29,242 bases of DNA from the NCBI GenBank assembly GCA_003697105.1, contig RFFQ01000148.1, positions 1 through 29,242 of the forward strand. The letters run 5' to 3'. Below the pieces are notes generated by a model. The model saw nothing but the letters and a program-made list of their open reading frames with translations, ran no database searches and was not told the origin of the DNA. Made by a program: the position numbers and the translations under genes. Below, in pieces: positions 7,434 to 15,049 of this stretch; position 1 is the first letter of the stretch; every line of letters starts with the position of its first letter. The DNA comes from Gemmatimonadota bacterium (GTDB taxonomy: Bacteria; 4572-55; J002).

Positions 7434-7859
7434 ATGCAGGTCAAACGTATCTTGGAAACGTCGCTTTATGTAGATGATCTTACCGCGGCAGAGTCATTTT
7501 ACCGGCAGGTGTTAGGTTTACAGCCCTTTACCAAACAGGATGGGCGGCATCTCTTTTTCCGGTGTGGGGATGCCGTATTTCTGCTGTTCAACGCTCAAGA
7601 AGCCCGGCAATCCGAGCACGTACCCGCCCACGGCGCCAGCGGTGCCGGGCATGTGGCATTTCGGATGGATGGGGATGAAATCGACCGGTGGCGAGACCAC
7701 CTGCGCCGGCACAACGTGAAAATTGAGCAGGAAATTGATTGGGGAAACGGCGGGTATTCCCTCTACTTCCGCGATCCAGCGGGCAATAGCTTGGAACTTG
7801 CCACACCTCAAACCTGGGGCATCCCGGCAGATGAAACAGGGAATTATTCCGAAGGCTGA
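7434..7859 (+). CDS. VOC (glyoxalase/dioxygenase superfamily) protein
   Basis: Small cytosolic protein of 141 residues with the paired beta-alpha-beta-beta-beta fold of the vicinal oxygen chelate superfamily. Typical motifs are seen: LYVDDLTAAESFYRQVLGL at the N-terminus, GHVAFRMDGDEIDRWRDHL in the centre and YSLYFRDPAGNSLELATP at the end. The metal-site His (GHVAF) and Glu (NSLEL) of the second half are present, but the usual first-strand His is replaced in ILETSLYV (Glu or Leu), so metal binding is uncertain. The start is the ATG preceded by GGAAGGAGG, not the longer frame that begins at 7335. Substrate unknown; it is most like uncharacterised glyoxalase-like proteins. Its stop overlaps the convergent coiled-coil gene by 16 nt. 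Confidence 0.85.
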   Translation: MQVKRILETSLYVDDLTAAESFYRQVLGLQPFTKQDGRHLFFRCGDAVFLLFNAQEARQSEHVPAHGASGAGHVAFRMDGDEIDRWRDHLRRHNVKIEQEIDWGNGGYSLYFRDPAGNSLELATPQTWGIPADETGNYSEG

Positions 7860-8110
7860 GTCCCATCCGGAGCCTCTAGCAGGCGTTCTAAAAAGTCGTA
7901 TTTGCTGAGGAGTCGCTGGTTTTCTGTTTCCAGTTCCAGAACACGTTGGGAAAGCTCACTCACATGCGCCTCTAATTGGGCAACCCGCGCCACATCCATC
8001 TCACCGCGTTCTGCCCGCAACGTGATTGCCTTTGCAATCGCTCTTGCCGGGGGAGAGTTCAAAATAATTGCCACAATGGGAATTGCCAAAAATAGCGCCA
8101 TTATATCCAT
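7844..8110 (-). CDS. Small membrane coiled-coil protein, PspB-like
   Basis: An 88-residue protein with one N-terminal membrane helix (DIMALFLAIPIVAIILN) followed by a basic segment and a long coiled coil (VAQLEAHVSELSQRVLEL and on). The layout and the ALFLAIP start are reminiscent of PspB, the small inner-membrane subunit of the phage-shock response, though the middle differs and I do not assert orthology. The start at 8110 is preceded by AGGAG at good spacing; an earlier ATG at 8137 is less suitable. It lies 27 nt after the second antiporter gene and is the last gene of the antiporter operon. Its 3' end overlaps the convergent VOC gene by 16 nt, with no terminator visible. A membrane-stress or antiporter-accessory role is inference. 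Confidence 0.75.
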   Translation of the reverse strand: MDIMALFLAIPIVAIILNSPPARAIAKAITLRAERGEMDVARVAQLEAHVSELSQRVLELETENQRLLSKYDFLERLLEAPDGTQPSE

Positions 8111-8137
8111 ATCTGTATCTCCTGTAATAGTAAACAC

Positions 8138-9430
8138 CTAACTTGAGCGGATTTCACCCGCTTTCCAGAGGGTCAGTTTCAGTAAAGCGGGACCATAAAA
8201 GTCTGTAAATGCCACCATCCCGAGGGCAACGGCTTTCACATGGCTGCCAAATTCAGGAAACGTCTTTCCGATGATCACGGCTAACGCGAGGGTCACCCCG
8301 GATTGGTTGAAAAACGCCATCCAGCCCCAATGGCGCAACGTTGAGTTGTCCTCTTTTGCCAATTGGGTACCGCTATAAACGGCGGCAAACAAGGATATCT
8401 TCCGGACAATCAACAACAACAAAATGATGTACCAACTGGTGCGAATGGCGTTCAAATCCAAAGATGCCGCCGTGATGGAAAAAAAGATAACATAAATCGG
8501 AATCGCGCTTTTGCTAATCGCCTCTAAGAATGCGTCACCTTGTTTGAACAGATTTTCAATCACAAAACCTGCCGAGAGACACAGCAGTAGGGCATCTAAG
8601 CCGAGTACATTGGCAATTTGGGTGCAAATAAACGCGGCGGCTAACACAAAAAAGACCGATTCCTCCCGCACATAATGCAAGTAAAATGAGATAATTGCCC
8701 CACACACAATCCCGATGCCAAAAGAACCGGCAAGTTTAATCACCAGTTGCCGAAAAACCACCACATCAATACCCACATCGCTCAAAATCGCCTGAGAGAG
8801 CGAGACGGAAATAGCGGCAAGCACGATGATCACCAGATCACCCAAAATCACCGACCCTAAAATGGTATCTGTCGTCCGTCCTTCGGCGTGTGTTTCCTCG
8901 ATAATAGCGATGGTCTGTACCGGAGAGGTTGCCAGCGCAAAAATCCCGAACAGGATGCCCACGACAATAATCACTAATTGAGATTGTCCCTGCAAAAATC
9001 CAAACAGAAACGGACCCGCCAGCACGGTGAATAAAAAAACGGCAAGAAAACAGATCACCGTCCGGGTTAAGGTGATCATCAGGATCGGTTTCAGACGCTT
9101 TTTCAGCATCTTGATTTTGAGCTTACGTCCCGCGGAAAAGGCAATTAAACTCAGGGCAATCTGGTCGATCAATCCTAAATTCCGCACTACCTCAACAGTC
9201 AAAAAATCAAGAACAAAGGGACCCGCCAGAACGCCCACCACCATGTATCCGGTGATTTTGGGCAGTTTGATGCGGTGCAAGATCATCCCAAAAATGTACG
9301 CCGCCAAAATAATAAACCCTAAGCCGAGGGTGGCTTGAATGGGTCCGCCCATCAGCGTACCGATCGGCAAAATCCCCAAGATAGACATCAGAATCAGGAC
9401 GATAATCAACGCCAAAATTTGGTAGGTCAT
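8138..9430 (-). CDS. CPA2-type cation:proton antiporter (second of a pair)
   Basis: Integral membrane protein of 430 residues, about 12 helices, of the Kef/NapA-type CPA2 superfamily. It contains the usual GYMVVGVLAGPF segment near residue 62, a SAGRKL motif, ATSPVQTIAII in the unwound-helix region and an acidic residue in the following helix (TILGSVILGDLVIIV) as expected for the ion-binding Asp. It lacks a C-terminal RCK/KTN domain, so regulation would have to come from other proteins, such as the EIIA and PII-like products encoded upstream. Cation (Na+ or K+) cannot be told. It follows the first antiporter by 44 nt on the same strand. The ribosome site is weak (GGAAAT). Sequence differs clearly from the first antiporter, so it is not a recent duplicate. 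Confidence 0.9.
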   Translation of the reverse strand: MTYQILALIIVLILMSILGILPIGTLMGGPIQATLGLGFIILAAYIFGMILHRIKLPKITGYMVVGVLAGPFVLDFLTVEVVRNLGLIDQIALSLIAFSAGRKLKIKMLKKRLKPILMITLTRTVICFLAVFLFTVLAGPFLFGFLQGQSQLVIIVVGILFGIFALATSPVQTIAIIEETHAEGRTTDTILGSVILGDLVIIVLAAISVSLSQAILSDVGIDVVVFRQLVIKLAGSFGIGIVCGAIISFYLHYVREESVFFVLAAAFICTQIANVLGLDALLLCLSAGFVIENLFKQGDAFLEAISKSAIPIYVIFFSITAASLDLNAIRTSWYIILLLLIVRKISLFAAVYSGTQLAKEDNSTLRHWGWMAFFNQSGVTLALAVIIGKTFPEFGSHVKAVALGMVAFTDFYGPALLKLTLWKAGEIRSS

Positions 9431-9474
9431 GGGTAGGTTATTTCCACTTCGGGGTGAACATCGAGGTCAAGGGA

Positions 9475-10740
9475 TTATCGTGCATCGCCGGCTTTGCGCA
9501 ACTCCGACCAAAGGAGCCAGGGACTGGTCAACTGAAACACAATCACCGCCAGCAAAACGGTTGGCAAAACCACGGCAGTGACATTATTCTCATACACCAT
9601 CGCATAACTAACCGCCATCGCAATCGATAAACCCCCTTGGGTCAGCAACCCTAATCCGGCAGTCGGGCGTAACACCTTCAGATTCAAGGCGTGGCGGGCA
9701 AGCGCAAATCCCCAAAACTTTCCGATAATGCGGGTCAGAACAAACATAGCGGTTAATGCGCCAATCCAAAAACCAAAATGGAATTGACACATCGCCCCGG
9801 CAACAATCAATAAGATCACATAGAGTACCTTTTCCGCATTCAAAAACATATCAAACAGGATTTTTCGGGTAGGCAAGCGGCGATTGGTTAAAATGATCCC
9901 CGAAACAAAGTTGATGACTAACGGAGACAGGTGTAAAAATGCCGCCAGACCCGAAGAAAAGATGATAAAACCGAGTAATAACACCACCATATCTTCCCGA
10001 TGCCGCGTTTTACGGATAAAAAGATACAACAAAAACCCCATGATTACCCCTAGCAGGATCGAGAGAAGCCCCCATTCCCACGGGTTCAAAATTTGGGATT
10101 CGCCACTGCCGTACACATGAAATGCGGCAAAAATAAACCCAAATGGGATAATTCCGAATAGACCATCTAAACTGGACATGCGCTGGTATAAGGATGTCGT
10201 GACACCTGTCCGCTTGATGCTCTTAAACCGGCTCAAAATCGCAAGACTAGAGGGTGAACTCACGACGGCTACCGACCCCAACATCAATGCCGCGGTTAAG
10301 TCCGCTTGGAATGTTTGCGGGAAAAGCCATTGCAAAAATAGGAACGTCCCCCCAGCAACGATACCAAACGTGACGACGGACACGATCAGCATCACCAGCA
10401 CGTGCCCTAACGGCGTTTTGGAGAGAATCTCCCGCTGGAATTGCAACCCGTAAATAATACCGATCCAGCCCAATTCCAGCACAATAATCGGTTGCAACGA
10501 ATTTAGAATAGTGGCACGGAGTAAATTGAACCCGATGGGTCCGATCAGCATTCCCAAAAAAATATATTCTACACCCGACAGGAAAAAAGGTACGCCGCCA
10601 ATAATGAGACGCGGCTTGAAGAGGGCAAAGCGGGAGACAACAAACCCGATTCCTAATAACCCGATAAATACGAGAATGGACTCCACCGGAACATCTGACG
10701 CAGCCGGGGCACCTGCGAGGAGTGCAAACTGTACCGTCAT
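9475..10740 (-). CDS. CPA2-type cation:proton antiporter (first of a pair)
   Basis: Integral membrane protein of 421 residues with about 12 helices, a member of the same broad CPA2 group as its neighbour but with distinct sequence. Seen are SGVEYIFLGMLIGPIGFNLL near the start, VAVVSSPSSLAIL in the ion-path region and MSSLDGLFGIIPFGF, where the Asp occupies the position of the conserved ion-binding residue. No RCK domain is attached. Start and stop are tightly coupled to the upstream gene through ATGA (the ATG overlaps the TGA of the PII-like gene). Together with the second antiporter it could form a heteromeric transporter or two transporters of different specificity; the sequence does not decide. 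Confidence 0.9.
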   Translation of the reverse strand: MTVQFALLAGAPAASDVPVESILVFIGLLGIGFVVSRFALFKPRLIIGGVPFFLSGVEYIFLGMLIGPIGFNLLRATILNSLQPIIVLELGWIGIIYGLQFQREILSKTPLGHVLVMLIVSVVTFGIVAGGTFLFLQWLFPQTFQADLTAALMLGSVAVVSSPSSLAILSRFKSIKRTGVTTSLYQRMSSLDGLFGIIPFGFIFAAFHVYGSGESQILNPWEWGLLSILLGVIMGFLLYLFIRKTRHREDMVVLLLGFIIFSSGLAAFLHLSPLVINFVSGIILTNRRLPTRKILFDMFLNAEKVLYVILLIVAGAMCQFHFGFWIGALTAMFVLTRIIGKFWGFALARHALNLKVLRPTAGLGLLTQGGLSIAMAVSYAMVYENNVTAVVLPTVLLAVIVFQLTSPWLLWSELRKAGDAR

Positions 10741-11081
10741 TCGCCCACCTCAAACGGATGAATTACATGGGTCACCGGAATGACAAACATATACCCCACA
10801 TCGGGGCGGGTAAAATCAATCTGTTCTGAGATCAACACGTCATTTAATTCGGTAGCAGTGGTGGCACTCTCCAACGGGGCGAGGATCACCTTGGTTACAA
10901 ACCGGGAACTTTTGGAGGAGAGGAGCAATCCGGCAAAGATAGGTACTTCTTTCACCAAAATTTCCTGCATCGAAATACCATCCAGAATCGAAGCATCGGG
11001 AATTTCGCATTCCACCATGGCAGAAAGCACATCGTCCAACAGATTTTCATCTGTTAATACAATCACCAAGAGATTATTCAT
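10737..11081 (-). CDS. PII/CutA1-like small regulatory protein
   Basis: A 114-residue soluble protein with a predicted beta-alpha-beta-beta-alpha-beta pattern: strand LLVIVLTD, helix ENLLDDVLSAMVE, strand ASILDG, later VTKVILAPL, helix TATELNDVL and final strand GYMFVIPVTHVI. This resembles PII-like and CutA1 proteins, ferredoxin-fold trimers that often regulate transporters after binding small ligands. No PII signature motif is clear, so assignment is by fold pattern only. The ATG follows immediately after the stop of the EIIA gene (TAGATG), with GAGGAGGGG as ribosome site, and its own stop overlaps the next start (ATGA). Such coupling implies fixed stoichiometry and suggests control of the antiporters. 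Confidence 0.65.
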   Translation of the reverse strand: MNNLLVIVLTDENLLDDVLSAMVECEIPDASILDGISMQEILVKEVPIFAGLLLSSKSSRFVTKVILAPLESATTATELNDVLISEQIDFTRPDVGYMFVIPVTHVIHPFEVGE

Positions 11082-11546
11082 CTACCCCTCCTCTGATTTC
11101 TGGATAATCTGATAGGCTTCGGCGGCAGATTGGGCGTTTTTCATGGCGACTCGCAGGTCTTGGTGATGAAACAAGCGGGAAATTCCCGCCAAGAGGCTCA
11201 GATATTTTACCCGTTTGGTGGGCGGTGCCGCAATTAAGAACAAAAAGTGCACCGGCTTTCCATCCATGGAGTCAAACGCAATTCCAGATTTGGAAAGCCC
11301 GAACACAATCACCACTTTACTCACCGTCGTCGTCTCCGCATGGGTAATGGCAATGCCGTTCCCAATACCGGTTGATTTGACCCGTTCACGTACGAGAATA
11401 TCTTCGGTCAATCCGGCGGGGTCGGTGATAATCTCGCCGTAACAGGTGGTGGCAAAATCAACCAATTCCTGAATGGCCGCTTGTTTTTCGGTCGATTTCA
11501 TCGGATACAAAATTTTGGCTTCAGTTAATGCTCGCGATAGCTTCAT
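11082..11546 (-). CDS. PTS EIIA-like protein (PtsN/fructose EIIA family)
   Basis: A cytosolic 154-residue EIIA domain protein of the mannitol/fructose/nitrogen family. It has the phospho-acceptor His at about residue 69 in GIGNGIAITHAE, where PtsN proteins have GIAIPHG, and the C-terminal FLFLIAAPP and YLSLLAGISRLF segments. No EIIB, EIIC, HPr or EI is seen nearby, so it is likely a regulator rather than part of a sugar permease. In enterobacteria the related PtsN controls K+ transport proteins, which fits the antiporters downstream. It is the first gene of the operon. The ATG at 11546 lies 10 nt after GGAG and a good promoter stands at 11603-11632. Confidence 0.9.
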   Translation of the reverse strand: MKLSRALTEAKILYPMKSTEKQAAIQELVDFATTCYGEIITDPAGLTEDILVRERVKSTGIGNGIAITHAETTTVSKVVIVFGLSKSGIAFDSMDGKPVHFLFLIAAPPTKRVKYLSLLAGISRLFHHQDLRVAMKNAQSAAEAYQIIQKSEEG

Positions 11547-11602
11547 AATGCATTGACTCCTGCTCAAATATCATCAAAATCATTGAGTTAAAAAGTAGTC
11601 GG

Positions 11603-11632
11603 AGTATAGCGGATTCAAGGGGGTACTGTCAA
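11603..11632 (-). promoter_or_regulatory. sigma70-like promoter of the EIIA/antiporter operon
   Basis: On the minus strand TTGACA (11627-11632), an 18-nt spacer and TATACT (11603-11608). It is the only strong promoter seen for the five genes from 11546 down to 7844, giving a leader of about 50 nt. Confidence 0.75.
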
Positions 11633-11696: not shown

Positions 11697-11752
11697 GAGA
11701 ACTTGCCTAAATGGACCCCGTCTCCGTCTCCGATCATCAAAGAGTACCGTTC

Positions 11753-14700
11753 ATGGATCAACAGATTCAAACCCTTCAAGAACAATCCCAACAGGCTGTT
11801 GGACGCGAAAAAGTCGATCTGCTCAATCAACTGGCGTGGGAGATGCGCATGGCGCCCTCTCCGGCAGCATTGGAAACGGCAGAACAGGCAGAACAACTCG
11901 CCCGGGAATTGGATTACCCCGCCGGATTGTGCCTCAGTTTACGCCACCAAGCCCGTTATCATCTGCAATTTGCGCATTTGGAGCAAGCACAGGCATTAGC
12001 AGAACAAGCTCTTGAACTCGCCGAAATGTTGGGTGACCTGAATGAAATGGGTTACATCTATAATATTCTAGGACGCATCCAAGGACGGTACGGAAACTAT
12101 CCTCAAGCATTAGCCTACTATTTACAGAGTCTGCACTATTTTGAACAAACGGGCAATCAATTCGCTCAGGCAAATCTCCTCTCCAATTTGGGCATTCTTC
12201 ACCTCAATTTGGGAGAGTATGAAAAAGCATTCGATTATCACCTGCAAAGCTACCACATCAAAGAAACATTGAGTGATACCGAAGGCATGGCGAATTCCCT
12301 GTTAAACATGGGTTCTTTGCACCTAAAATGTAACCATTACACCGACGCCATTCAGTGCCACACGCAAGCGTTAGAACTAATGCGTCACCTGCAAGATCGA
12401 GAAGGTGAAGCACTGGTTCTCAGCAATTTGGGAGAAGCCTATCTTCAGTTGGGCGAACTGGAACAAGCCCGGAGCGTTTCCGAACAGGGGCTGGCGCTCA
12501 AGCGGGAGTTCGGCACTCCCGACGATTATACCAAACATCTATTGCAGCTCGCCCGGATATATCAGGCTCAAGGTGAGGTACACTCCGCAAAAGTGTATTT
12601 GCACAAAGCAGAAGAACAGATGCAACGCATCGATTCCAAACCGTTGAAGATGTACGTCCACCAGCGGATGTACGAGATGTACCGGAAATGGGGTGAGGTG
12701 GAACCGGCACTGCACCATCACGAACACTATCACCATCTCTATCAGGAATTATTTAATGAGAATACACAAAAGCGCCGGTATGAGGTTGAGTTGGAAAATT
12801 TACATCGCCAAATTGCCGAAGAAACGCACCTGCGGACACTGATCGAAAACGTTCCCGCCGCAGTTTGGCTGGTAGATACGGCTTTAAAGGTGGTTATCTT
12901 CAATGCCAATTTCAGAAACTTCTTTCAAGCCTTTTATGGCAAGGATGTTATCGCGGGCCAACCGGTACTTCAGGCGATTCCGGAAGATCGAGCCCAAGAA
13001 TGGCGACAATACTACCAACGGGCACTTACCGGAGAACACTTTTTTGTGGAAAAAGCCTTTGAACTGAATCAAGTACACTTGGAATTTGAGATCACGTTTT
13101 GCCCTCTTTTAGATGTTTCCGGTGACATAACAGGGATTAGCGTTTTCATGCAAGATATTTCCGAACGAAAACGCGCCGAACAGTCTCTGCGAGAACGCGA
13201 AGAATTATTAACCTCCATCAACCGGAATCTGTCCGAAGGTATCTACCGCAGTACACCGGATGCCCGGTTGCTCTATGCCAATCAATCCTTTATCAATATG
13301 TTTGGCTATTCCTCCTTTGAAGAGCTAAAAACGGAATCCAGCTTATTTTTATATGCCAATCCCCAACGCCGGCACGAATTAGCCCAACGGATCGCCCAAG
13401 AGGGTCGTTTTGAGAATGAGGAAGTTGAATTTATCCGCAAAGATGGCTCTCATTTTTGGGCGTTGGTCAGCAGTTACGGTGTTTTCGATAAGACCGGACA
13501 GGTGCGGTACTACGACGGCGCCATTAAAGACATTACCGACCGGAAATTGGCAGAAAAGGCACTAGCCGAAGAAAAGGAACGGCTCGCCGTGACGTTACAA
13601 TCCATTGGTGATGCGGTAATTACCACAGATACTCATGGTCACATTGTATCTTTGAACCCTGTGGCAGAAGAACTAACCGGCTGGCAACAGGAAGATGCTG
13701 TCGGCAGAGACCTCAACGAAGTGTTTTTGGTAATCAATGAACAGACGGGCTTACCCGCCGAAAATCCGGTCAAAAAAGTCCTTCAGGAGGGCTGGATAAT
13801 GCGCCTACCCCAACACACCTCGCTCATTACGCGGGAGGGGCAGGAGCTACCCATTGCCGATAGCGCCGCACCCATCCGCAACCAACAAGGTCAAATTATT
13901 GGGGCAGTGGTCGTCTTCCGAGATGTCACCGATGCCCAACGATTACGACGAGCAAAAGAAAACTTTTTGAATGCGATCAGTCATGAACTGCGAACCCCTC
14001 TCACCCCCATCATTGGCTATGTTCAGTTGTTGCAAGAGATGGATTTGCCCCCGAACGTCAAGCACATTCTGGAACGGATTCTAAAATCCGTAGAACGGGA
14101 AAAAAAGCTGGTGGATGATCTGCTGGCAGTCGCCCGGCTCGAAAGTGGAAATATCCAGTACCATTTTACCACCCAAAATGCGTACATGCTATTTTCCCAG
14201 TTGGCAGAAGAAGCCCACAAGTTGGTCACGTTTAGCGTGAAAGAACGCTACGGCCAAGATGAATCCGGGTTTACATACCGGATTCAAATTGCCGAAGAAC
14301 TCCGTACCGTGATGGTTCACGTGGATGTGGATTGCATTCGTCGCGTGATCGAAAATCTCGTCATCAACGCTGTGAAATATTCCCCACCACAGCGCCTGCT
14401 CATTGAATTTGAGGTGATCCTCCGGGAGGAACGGGTCGTCGTCGCCATTTCCGACCGGGGCTACGGCATCCCAGAGGACGAAATTGAGGCGATTTTCGAT
14501 CCATTTTACCAAATCCGAACCCGAGATTATGATGTCTCGGACGGGGTGGGACAAGGCTTGGCAATTGTCAAACAATATGTGGATGCCCATCAAGGCACCA
14601 TCTGGGCGGAAAGTGCCTTGGGTGTGGGGAGCCGCTTCCTATTTGAATTACCGGTGGCAGACTATGTTCAACCCCGCTCTTCCACCACACCGCTCATCTT

Positions 14701-15049
14701 GCTGATCGAAGATGACCCCGAAACCGCCGAATTTATACGCACCTTGCTAGAAGCTCAGGAATACACGATCCAAGTGGCAGAAACTGGAAATACGGCGCTG
14801 GAAAAGCTAAATACCCAAACGGTCGATATGGTTATTCTGGATTTACAACTCCCCGATATGGACGGGCAAACCATTATTTCCCACATGATCGAAACCGGCT
14901 GCAACATCCCCCTGATATTGTGCAGTGCCCAACCTCCAGAAGAACTCGCCCGAATCCAACAAAAGTTGCCCCTCGTCCAAGATTATATCTCGAAGCCTTT
15001 TCATATTAATGAATTTACCCAAAAAGTAACAAATATATTCCCCCATTAA
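11753..15049 (+). CDS. TPR-PAS-PAS-PAS hybrid histidine kinase with receiver domain
   Basis: A soluble signalling protein of about 1098 residues with no membrane segment. TPR repeats fill about residues 15-335, a short coiled coil follows, then three PAS domains (about 360-470, 480-600 and 608-728), each of the later ones ending in a DIT/DVT motif. The kinase core has the H box (ISHELRTPLTP, His about 744), N box (NLVINAVKYSP), G1 (DRGYGIP) and G2 (GVGQGLAIV). A C-terminal receiver carries IEDDPE, phospho-Asp near 1030 (VILDLQLPDMDG), Ser in LCSAQ and Lys in ISKPF. No output domain, so a phosphorelay partner must lie elsewhere. The start is uncertain: 11711 is in frame, but 11753 has AAAGAG 8 nt upstream and suits the promoter. 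It is divergent from the antiporter operon. Confidence 0.92.
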   Translation: MDQQIQTLQEQSQQAVGREKVDLLNQLAWEMRMAPSPAALETAEQAEQLARELDYPAGLCLSLRHQARYHLQFAHLEQAQALAEQALELAEMLGDLNEMGYIYNILGRIQGRYGNYPQALAYYLQSLHYFEQTGNQFAQANLLSNLGILHLNLGEYEKAFDYHLQSYHIKETLSDTEGMANSLLNMGSLHLKCNHYTDAIQCHTQALELMRHLQDREGEALVLSNLGEAYLQLGELEQARSVSEQGLALKREFGTPDDYTKHLLQLARIYQAQGEVHSAKVYLHKAEEQMQRIDSKPLKMYVHQRMYEMYRKWGEVEPALHHHEHYHHLYQELFNENTQKRRYEVELENLHRQIAEETHLRTLIENVPAAVWLVDTALKVVIFNANFRNFFQAFYGKDVIAGQPVLQAIPEDRAQEWRQYYQRALTGEHFFVEKAFELNQVHLEFEITFCPLLDVSGDITGISVFMQDISERKRAEQSLREREELLTSINRNLSEGIYRSTPDARLLYANQSFINMFGYSSFEELKTESSLFLYANPQRRHELAQRIAQEGRFENEEVEFIRKDGSHFWALVSSYGVFDKTGQVRYYDGAIKDITDRKLAEKALAEEKERLAVTLQSIGDAVITTDTHGHIVSLNPVAEELTGWQQEDAVGRDLNEVFLVINEQTGLPAENPVKKVLQEGWIMRLPQHTSLITREGQELPIADSAAPIRNQQGQIIGAVVVFRDVTDAQRLRRAKENFLNAISHELRTPLTPIIGYVQLLQEMDLPPNVKHILERILKSVEREKKLVDDLLAVARLESGNIQYHFTTQNAYMLFSQLAEEAHKLVTFSVKERYGQDESGFTYRIQIAEELRTVMVHVDVDCIRRVIENLVINAVKYSPPQRLLIEFEVILREERVVVAISDRGYGIPEDEIEAIFDPFYQIRTRDYDVSDGVGQGLAIVKQYVDAHQGTIWAESALGVGSRFLFELPVADYVQPRSSTTPLILLIEDDPETAEFIRTLLEAQEYTIQVAETGNTALEKLNTQTVDMVILDLQLPDMDGQTIISHMIETGCNIPLILCSAQPPEELARIQQKLPLVQDYISKPFHINEFTQKVTNIFPH

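Follow-up and report, generated by a model that had tools for sequence, protein, structure and literature searches.

Gene content of the locus

The stretch of DNA considered here, referred to as the window, covers positions 1 to 29,242 (29,242 nt) of contig RFFQ01000148.1 from the Gemmatimonadota bacterium assembly GCA_003697105.1, and its subject is a run of five open reading frames (ORFs), with a promoter-like site before them, on the minus strand at 7844–11632. In order of transcription, these encode an EIIA protein of the phosphotransferase system (PTS), Fru/Ntr type (PF00359; 11082–11546, 154 aa from an ATG); a PII-like protein (10737–11081, 114 aa); an antiporter-like subunit with the cation/proton antiporter (CPA) fold, here called AP1 (9475–10740, 421 aa); a CPA2 antiporter, here called AP2 (8138–9430, 430 aa); and a PspB-like small protein (7844–8110, 88 aa from an ATG). 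For EIIA, the ATG at 11546 is most likely the true start, in preference to the listed TTG at 11567. The EIIA stop codon directly abuts the PII-like start codon in a TAG/ATG junction (GGGGTAGATG), an ATGA overlap joins the PII-like gene to AP1, and the remaining intergenic gaps are 44 bp (AP1 to AP2) and 27 bp (AP2 to the PspB-like gene, measured from the ATG of the latter).

A sigma70-like promoter, TTGACA-N18-TATACT, is found at 11603–11632 on the same strand, with 11 of 12 consensus bases. It is the top-scoring of 11 promoter-like sites in the region; as a class, such sites are not in excess (7.9 ± 2.8 in shuffled sequences), and because their number falls within chance the scan is no evidence in itself. 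The five ORFs, both junctions, and the promoter-like site had all been claimed in an earlier sequence-only reading of this DNA and were confirmed in the sequence.

Recurrence of the EIIA, PII-like, and antiporter genes

When a three-sequence PII-like profile was run against 386 genomes, most of them the only representative of their family, 61 proved to carry the PII-like protein, at 70 loci. Counting as neighbors those genes on the same strand and within 2.5 kb of the PII-like gene, 47 of the 70 loci have an EIIA neighbor, 45 a CPA2 antiporter, and 36 both. At 13 the two small proteins are fused (EIIA~PII), and 11 of these adjoin an antiporter. Over all loci collected there are 17 such fusions, in both domain orders, mostly EIIA-PII with PII-EIIA in loci L142 and L179. 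The Pfam P-II model missed the PII half in all seven fusions scanned, matching only the EIIA half; the PII half was assigned by a family hidden Markov model built in this analysis. A second collection of 80 named loci, mainly from Omnitrophota, Gemmatimonadota, Latescibacterota, Aminicenantes, Coatesbacteria, KSB1, WOR-3, Zixibacteria, and others, was gathered with a closer 12-sequence alignment that favors members containing the motif PIFAG (see below); since it selects for these, it is no unbiased sample, and the rates quoted here come from the 386-genome surveys.

Genes for the three proteins, EIIA, PII-like, and CPA2 antiporter, are clustered in many bacterial families and phyla, more than chance would give, and their genomic association is near certain. 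The co-occurrence proposed in the sequence-only reading was thus borne out in many phyla, with the addition of fusions in both orders; its description of the module as uncommon was not, given 61 genomes of 386 with the PII-like protein.

The EIIA-PII pair is not confined to CPA2 antiporters. In bacterium UASB270 (L128:3821-10845) it lies inside an Mrp operon with MnhE, G, B, C- and D-type subunits; in L077 it is inside or beside an Mrp (Mnh) operon, as is the PII-like gene alone in L080; and in L070, L074, and L196 a gene for a ClC chloride channel/exchanger with CBS domains comes after the EIIA and PII-like genes. The association is therefore with ion/proton exchangers in general. The clustering might still reflect shared physiology only, with EIIA and the PII-like protein serving other targets and merely sharing a transcript. 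The occurrence of PII-like genes beside phosphoglycerate mutase and other genes, and the scattering of the module parts in one genome (G001), would fit this. Against it stand the many phyla in which the cluster recurs, with its genes in varying order, the EIIA~PII fusions found next to antiporters, and the independent placement of the pair in Mrp operons and beside ClC, and it is considered very improbable. A regulatory link of the EIIA and PII-like proteins to the antiporters is likely.

Several other neighborhoods were seen. A PII-like gene is found beside a phosphoglycerate mutase-like gene in L065 and L069 (in L069 identified by Pfam) and beside what by eye is a protein-kinase-like gene in L076 and L182, with no antiporter near in any of the four. 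In the Omnitrophota loci L142 and L163 several EIIA genes precede the antiporter and PII-like genes; in L142 these include a PII~EIIA fusion.

The PII-like protein

The window PII-like protein has no Pfam match of its own, and a direct PDB sequence search with it gave nothing useful. When modeled by AlphaFold2 from a 78-sequence alignment (mean predicted local distance difference test score, pLDDT, 87.6), the 114 residues take up the beta-alpha-beta-beta-alpha-beta core known from PII, and two short helices occupy the position of the classical PII T-loop. Every top match of the model in the PDB is a PII or PII-like protein: Foldseek gives E 1e-4 to classical PII, and the VIA-align list is led by PII-like 3dfe, SbtB, and CPII (Z 10.3–10.6; best Z 10.6, root-mean-square deviation 2.2, 80 aligned). 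Within the alignment, 45 of 78 members match Pfam P-II (PF00543) at E ≤ 0.01, the best at 5e-11. By its model, then, the protein is of PII fold, nearest SbtB/CPII, in agreement with its original designation as PII-like.

The most conserved stretch of the family is the invariant PIFAG (residues 47–51, about 10943–10929, minus strand), which falls in the T-loop region. It is with the T-loop that GlnK docks on AmtB and SbtB on SbtA. The classical PII B-loop signature was found in none of 154 family members, using a regular expression modeled on the PROSITE pattern, so the ligand of this family cannot be assumed.

EIIA and its probable phosphorylation

EIIA matches PF00359 at E 3e-26 and scores 76.5 bits against the curated PtsN model TIGR01419, below its cut-off of 138.7; judged by sequence, it is PtsN-like and not PtsN proper. 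The active-site residue is His69 (in ITHAE; codon 11342–11340, minus strand). This His is kept in 101 of 103 module EIIAs. One other row of the alignment is a gap, and the sole substitution is an Asn in L093 (G220:C28). Neither EI nor HPr was found in that genome (G220, 86% complete), making this a single case that matches the prediction of phosphorylation-dependent control. Of 25 module genomes, 22 were found to have both EI and HPr, the window's own (G000) among them. A search for EIIC limited to PF02378 found none in ten genomes (G000 and nine others). The presence of EI and HPr together with the absence of this EIIC points to a regulatory, non-sugar PTS.

Two more EIIA proteins occur in the window's own genome, each with further domains that were judged by eye: one with what look like two UspA-like domains (L233:3176-4468) and one with an excisionase-type helix-turn-helix (L232:3128-3940).

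The two antiporters

AP2 matches PF00999 (E 3.4e-26) and the CPA2 model TIGR00932, yet under the cut-off of the latter. AP1 has no Pfam match of its own, and a direct PDB sequence search with it gave nothing useful. Its AlphaFold2 model (mean pLDDT 89.9) has a complete NhaA-type fold including the broken helices, and is nearest to SOS1, NapA, and NhaP (Z about 31; NapA 31.1 over 368 residues), with KefC at Z 23.5. As the sequence-only reading had held, neither carries an RCK domain, nor was another soluble domain found in either: AP2 ends nine residues past its Pfam exchanger domain, and the predicted structure of AP1 has no C-terminal extension past the membrane fold.

The two differ at the ion-binding site in transmembrane helix 5 (TM5), where CPA proteins have a DD or ND pair. 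The second Asp of this pair (position 7) is essential and conserved in 94% of CPAs (PMC6181914), and KefC D156N loses bound K+ density (PMC11150392). In a profile-profile alignment, AP1 D192-G193 (codons 10167–10162, minus strand) and AP2 G197-D198 (Asp codon 8839–8837, minus strand) fall in the same register, so that AP2 keeps the essential Asp and AP1 has a Gly in its place. The comparison of this site covered antiporters near the module, 39 tandem pairs and 58 single genes. The canonical TM5 DD is seen in the single antiporters and in tandems of the order AP-AP-EIIA-PII. Where the genes follow the window order (EIIA-PII-AP1-AP2), the essential Asp is retained by the downstream AP2 in 31 of 31 cases (it is also invariant in alignment A6); at the first position AP2 has Lys (17), Leu (5), Arg, Gly, Ser, Val, or Met, and Asp just once. 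Upstream, AP1 lacks the essential Asp in 22 of 31, with seven replacements (Gly, Ser, Ala, Pro, Val, Leu, and Asn); of the nine counted as having it, L094 and L095 are doubtful alignments and L116 is of DD type by sequence. The difference in Asp state between AP1 and AP2 gives a Fisher value of 1e-9, not corrected for kinship. All other aligned antiporters near the module keep the essential Asp, save four that are AP1-like.

The tree largely divides AP1 from AP2, each group holding 30 of its 31 members. The ratio of nonsynonymous to synonymous substitution rates (dN/dS) between close AP1 pairs is 0.06–0.22, like that of AP2 and including lineages without the Asp, which shows purifying selection on AP1; with frames open in all pairs, a decaying pseudogene was rejected. 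AP1 also has conserved positions of its own (GLQ, N286, and E303).

Whether AP1 occurs without AP2 was followed with a separate AP1 search over the 386 genomes, in which a gap divides true AP1 (E < 1e-80, 12 genomes) from the rest. All 12 have the PII-like protein (base rate 61/386). Adding the weaker matches in G029, G375, and G194 gives 15 AP1-type genomes: AP2 is adjacent to AP1 in 11 and elsewhere in the genome in the other four (G001, G216, G075, and G375). In G001, contig C45 (L236) carries two KD-type AP2 genes in tandem, with AP1 not beside them. Four Gemmatimonadota loci (L175, L180, L188, and L191) have EIIA-PII-AP1 without a neighboring AP2; they were rejected as counter-examples, a KD-type AP2 being present unlinked in the genome. 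Among the AP1 genomes checked, none has AP1 without an AP2, linked or unlinked. A set of “AP” ORFs of 550–760 aa was not used as proof of a heterodimer through AP1-AP2 fusion: each holds one antiporter domain, and the N-terminal parts are out-of-frame read-through across the upstream AP1 gene.

The sequence-only reading had left two explanations for the pair, a heteromer or two ion specificities. The first is the better of these, since the ion-binding Asp is usually missing from AP1 and every genome with AP1 that was checked has AP2 as well; a heteromer with a silent AP1 is judged probable. Two separate homodimers, differing in ion specificity or stoichiometry and sharing the EIIA/PII-like control, are the form that the second explanation would take. 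The solved structures of CPA proteins typically show homodimers, the AP-AP-EIIA-PII tandems (in Coatesbacteria and others) have a full DD in both copies so that each could act alone, and six clear AP1 cases retain DD as well. The window-type AP1, against this, is mostly without the essential Asp, AP2 is present in every AP1 genome checked, and the two genes usually overlap by 4 bp in window-type loci, so that separate homodimers seem unlikely. Another possibility is that AP1 is not silent and works with an altered chemistry, using its first Asp, another residue, or a different substrate. The complete NhaA fold with its broken helices, the low dN/dS, the first Asp present in 21 of 31, and the conserved GLQ, N286, and E303 would all suit an active protein. 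Both site residues vary freely by lineage, however (DG, RS, RA, DL, DV, TS, AS, and DP), which is unlike a new conserved site, and such an active AP1 is more doubtful still.

A model for the operon

Under the heteromer reading, the operon would encode a heteromeric NhaA-fold cation/proton antiporter and two soluble regulators. The heterodimer of AP1 and AP2, the docking of the regulators, whether these inhibit or activate, and which ion and ligand take part are inferred. AP2 would be the catalytic protomer, exchanging a cation for a proton; by a published CPA model, its “xD” in place of the “DD” form suggests electroneutral exchange. AP1 would be a paralogous protomer that lost the Asp in most lineages and was retained as a structural and regulatory partner of AP2. 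As neither has a cytoplasmic domain, control would be supplied by separate proteins. EI and HPr would phosphorylate EIIA, which would report phosphoenolpyruvate (PEP) status, and the PII-like protein would sense a small ligand, which, as in SbtB, may be an adenine nucleotide. Both regulators would act jointly on the antiporter, and the EIIA~PII fusions show that they work as one physically linked unit. The antiporter YcgO is inhibited when PtsN binds to it in the unphosphorylated state (PMC11808508), and by analogy with PtsN-YcgO unphosphorylated EIIA would hold the antiporter shut. Taken whole, with catalytic AP2 and regulatory AP1 under EIIA and PII-like control, the model is given a somewhat better than even chance.

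Several observations weigh against it. Both Asp are retained in the AP1 of L022, L092, L126, L129, L136, and L183, so that a loss of catalysis does not hold for every lineage, and AP1 usually keeps the first Asp (21/31), through which an ion or proton might still be bound. By parsimony the AP1 clade has seen about six changes of Asp state, so that the counts given above are not independent events, and support for the AP1 and AP2 groups in the tree is low (0.44 and 0.61). No antiporter is near the PII-like gene in 25 of the 70 survey loci, some of them at contig ends. In G001, the one genome of the window's own class that was compared, every module part except the PspB-like one is present, but EIIA-PII, AP1, and the tandem AP2 genes are on three separate contigs. 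Finally, PII-like trimers would meet antiporter dimers, for which a simple symmetrical complex is not obvious; docking via EIIA, or on AP1 only, would ease the mismatch.

A broader proposal is that EIIA and the PII-like protein form a portable dual-sensor cassette, combining a PEP phosphorelay with a nucleotide or other ligand, which is placed on CPA2, Mrp, and ClC exchangers and which, together with a divergent CPA2 pair, controls an obligate heterodimer including a pseudo-antiporter protomer without ion binding. This is held tentatively, at slightly under an even chance.

Relation to known systems

The nearest parallel to the EIIA part is PtsN-YcgO (CvrA) of E. coli, in which a regulatory-PTS EIIA-type protein likewise controls a cation/proton antiporter by phosphorylation-dependent binding (PMC11808508). 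YcgO is a CPA1 protein, however, with its own RCK/CorC cytoplasmic region as the PtsN site, whereas the window antiporters have no soluble domain; nor does that system include a PII-like protein or an antiporter pair. For the PII-like part, SbtA-SbtB and AmtB-GlnK are alike in having a PII or PII-like trimer encoded beside the membrane transporter that it controls. Their targets are bicarbonate and ammonium transporters, both of them trimers, no EIIA is involved, and the window family differs in lacking the classical B-loop signature. Among the antiporters, NapA and KefC share the fold with AP1 and the Pfam family and essential Asp with AP2, but are homodimers of identical active protomers, KefC being controlled by its own RCK domain. 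Mrp (Mnh) complexes are heteromeric cation/proton antiporters and in some genomes (L128) have the EIIA-PII pair inside their operon, but belong to an unrelated, complex I-like superfamily.

Each half of the proposal thus has a precedent, in PtsN-YcgO and SbtB-SbtA. Neither the combination of EIIA, PII-like protein, and antiporter with its spread over antiporter superfamilies, nor a CPA pair with one protomer without the essential Asp, was found in the open-licence literature searched. The antiporters known so far have a sensor domain of their own or a single borrowed regulator; in the present case two separate metabolic sensors, one for PEP by way of the PTS and one for a small ligand, appear as a linked, often fused, unit beside several unrelated kinds of exchanger. 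If the proposal holds, many uncultured phyla would have their pH and cation balance coupled directly to their energy and carbon state, and the orphan PTS proteins of Omnitrophota, Gemmatimonadota, Latescibacterota, Aminicenantes, Coatesbacteria, and others would gain a role. An Asp-less protomer in a CPA heteromer would also test whether both protomers of the fold must transport.

The PspB-like gene and the divergent kinase

The last gene of the operon most likely starts at the ATG following AGGAG (88 aa), which is preferred to a 97-aa version from a GTG. By ORF and hydropathy, its product has a hydrophobic N-terminus followed by a predicted coiled coil. The match to the NCBIfam PspB equivalog model TIGR02976 is weak (E 8.7e-4, 19.5 bits against a cut-off of 51.7). 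A homologue was found in none of the 153 other module loci, the window alone having it, and the gene was for that reason rejected as a module part, in departure from the five-family module first proposed. It is probably co-transcribed with the operon, yet outside the conserved module.

Divergent from the operon, at 11711–15049 on the plus strand of the window, is a gene for a 1112-aa hybrid kinase, a placement that may be due to chance. The same may be true of four Coatesbacteria-type modules (L018, L054, L055, and L160), each of which has an ORF of ~1200 aa after it, the one in L018 encoding a PAS hybrid histidine kinase.

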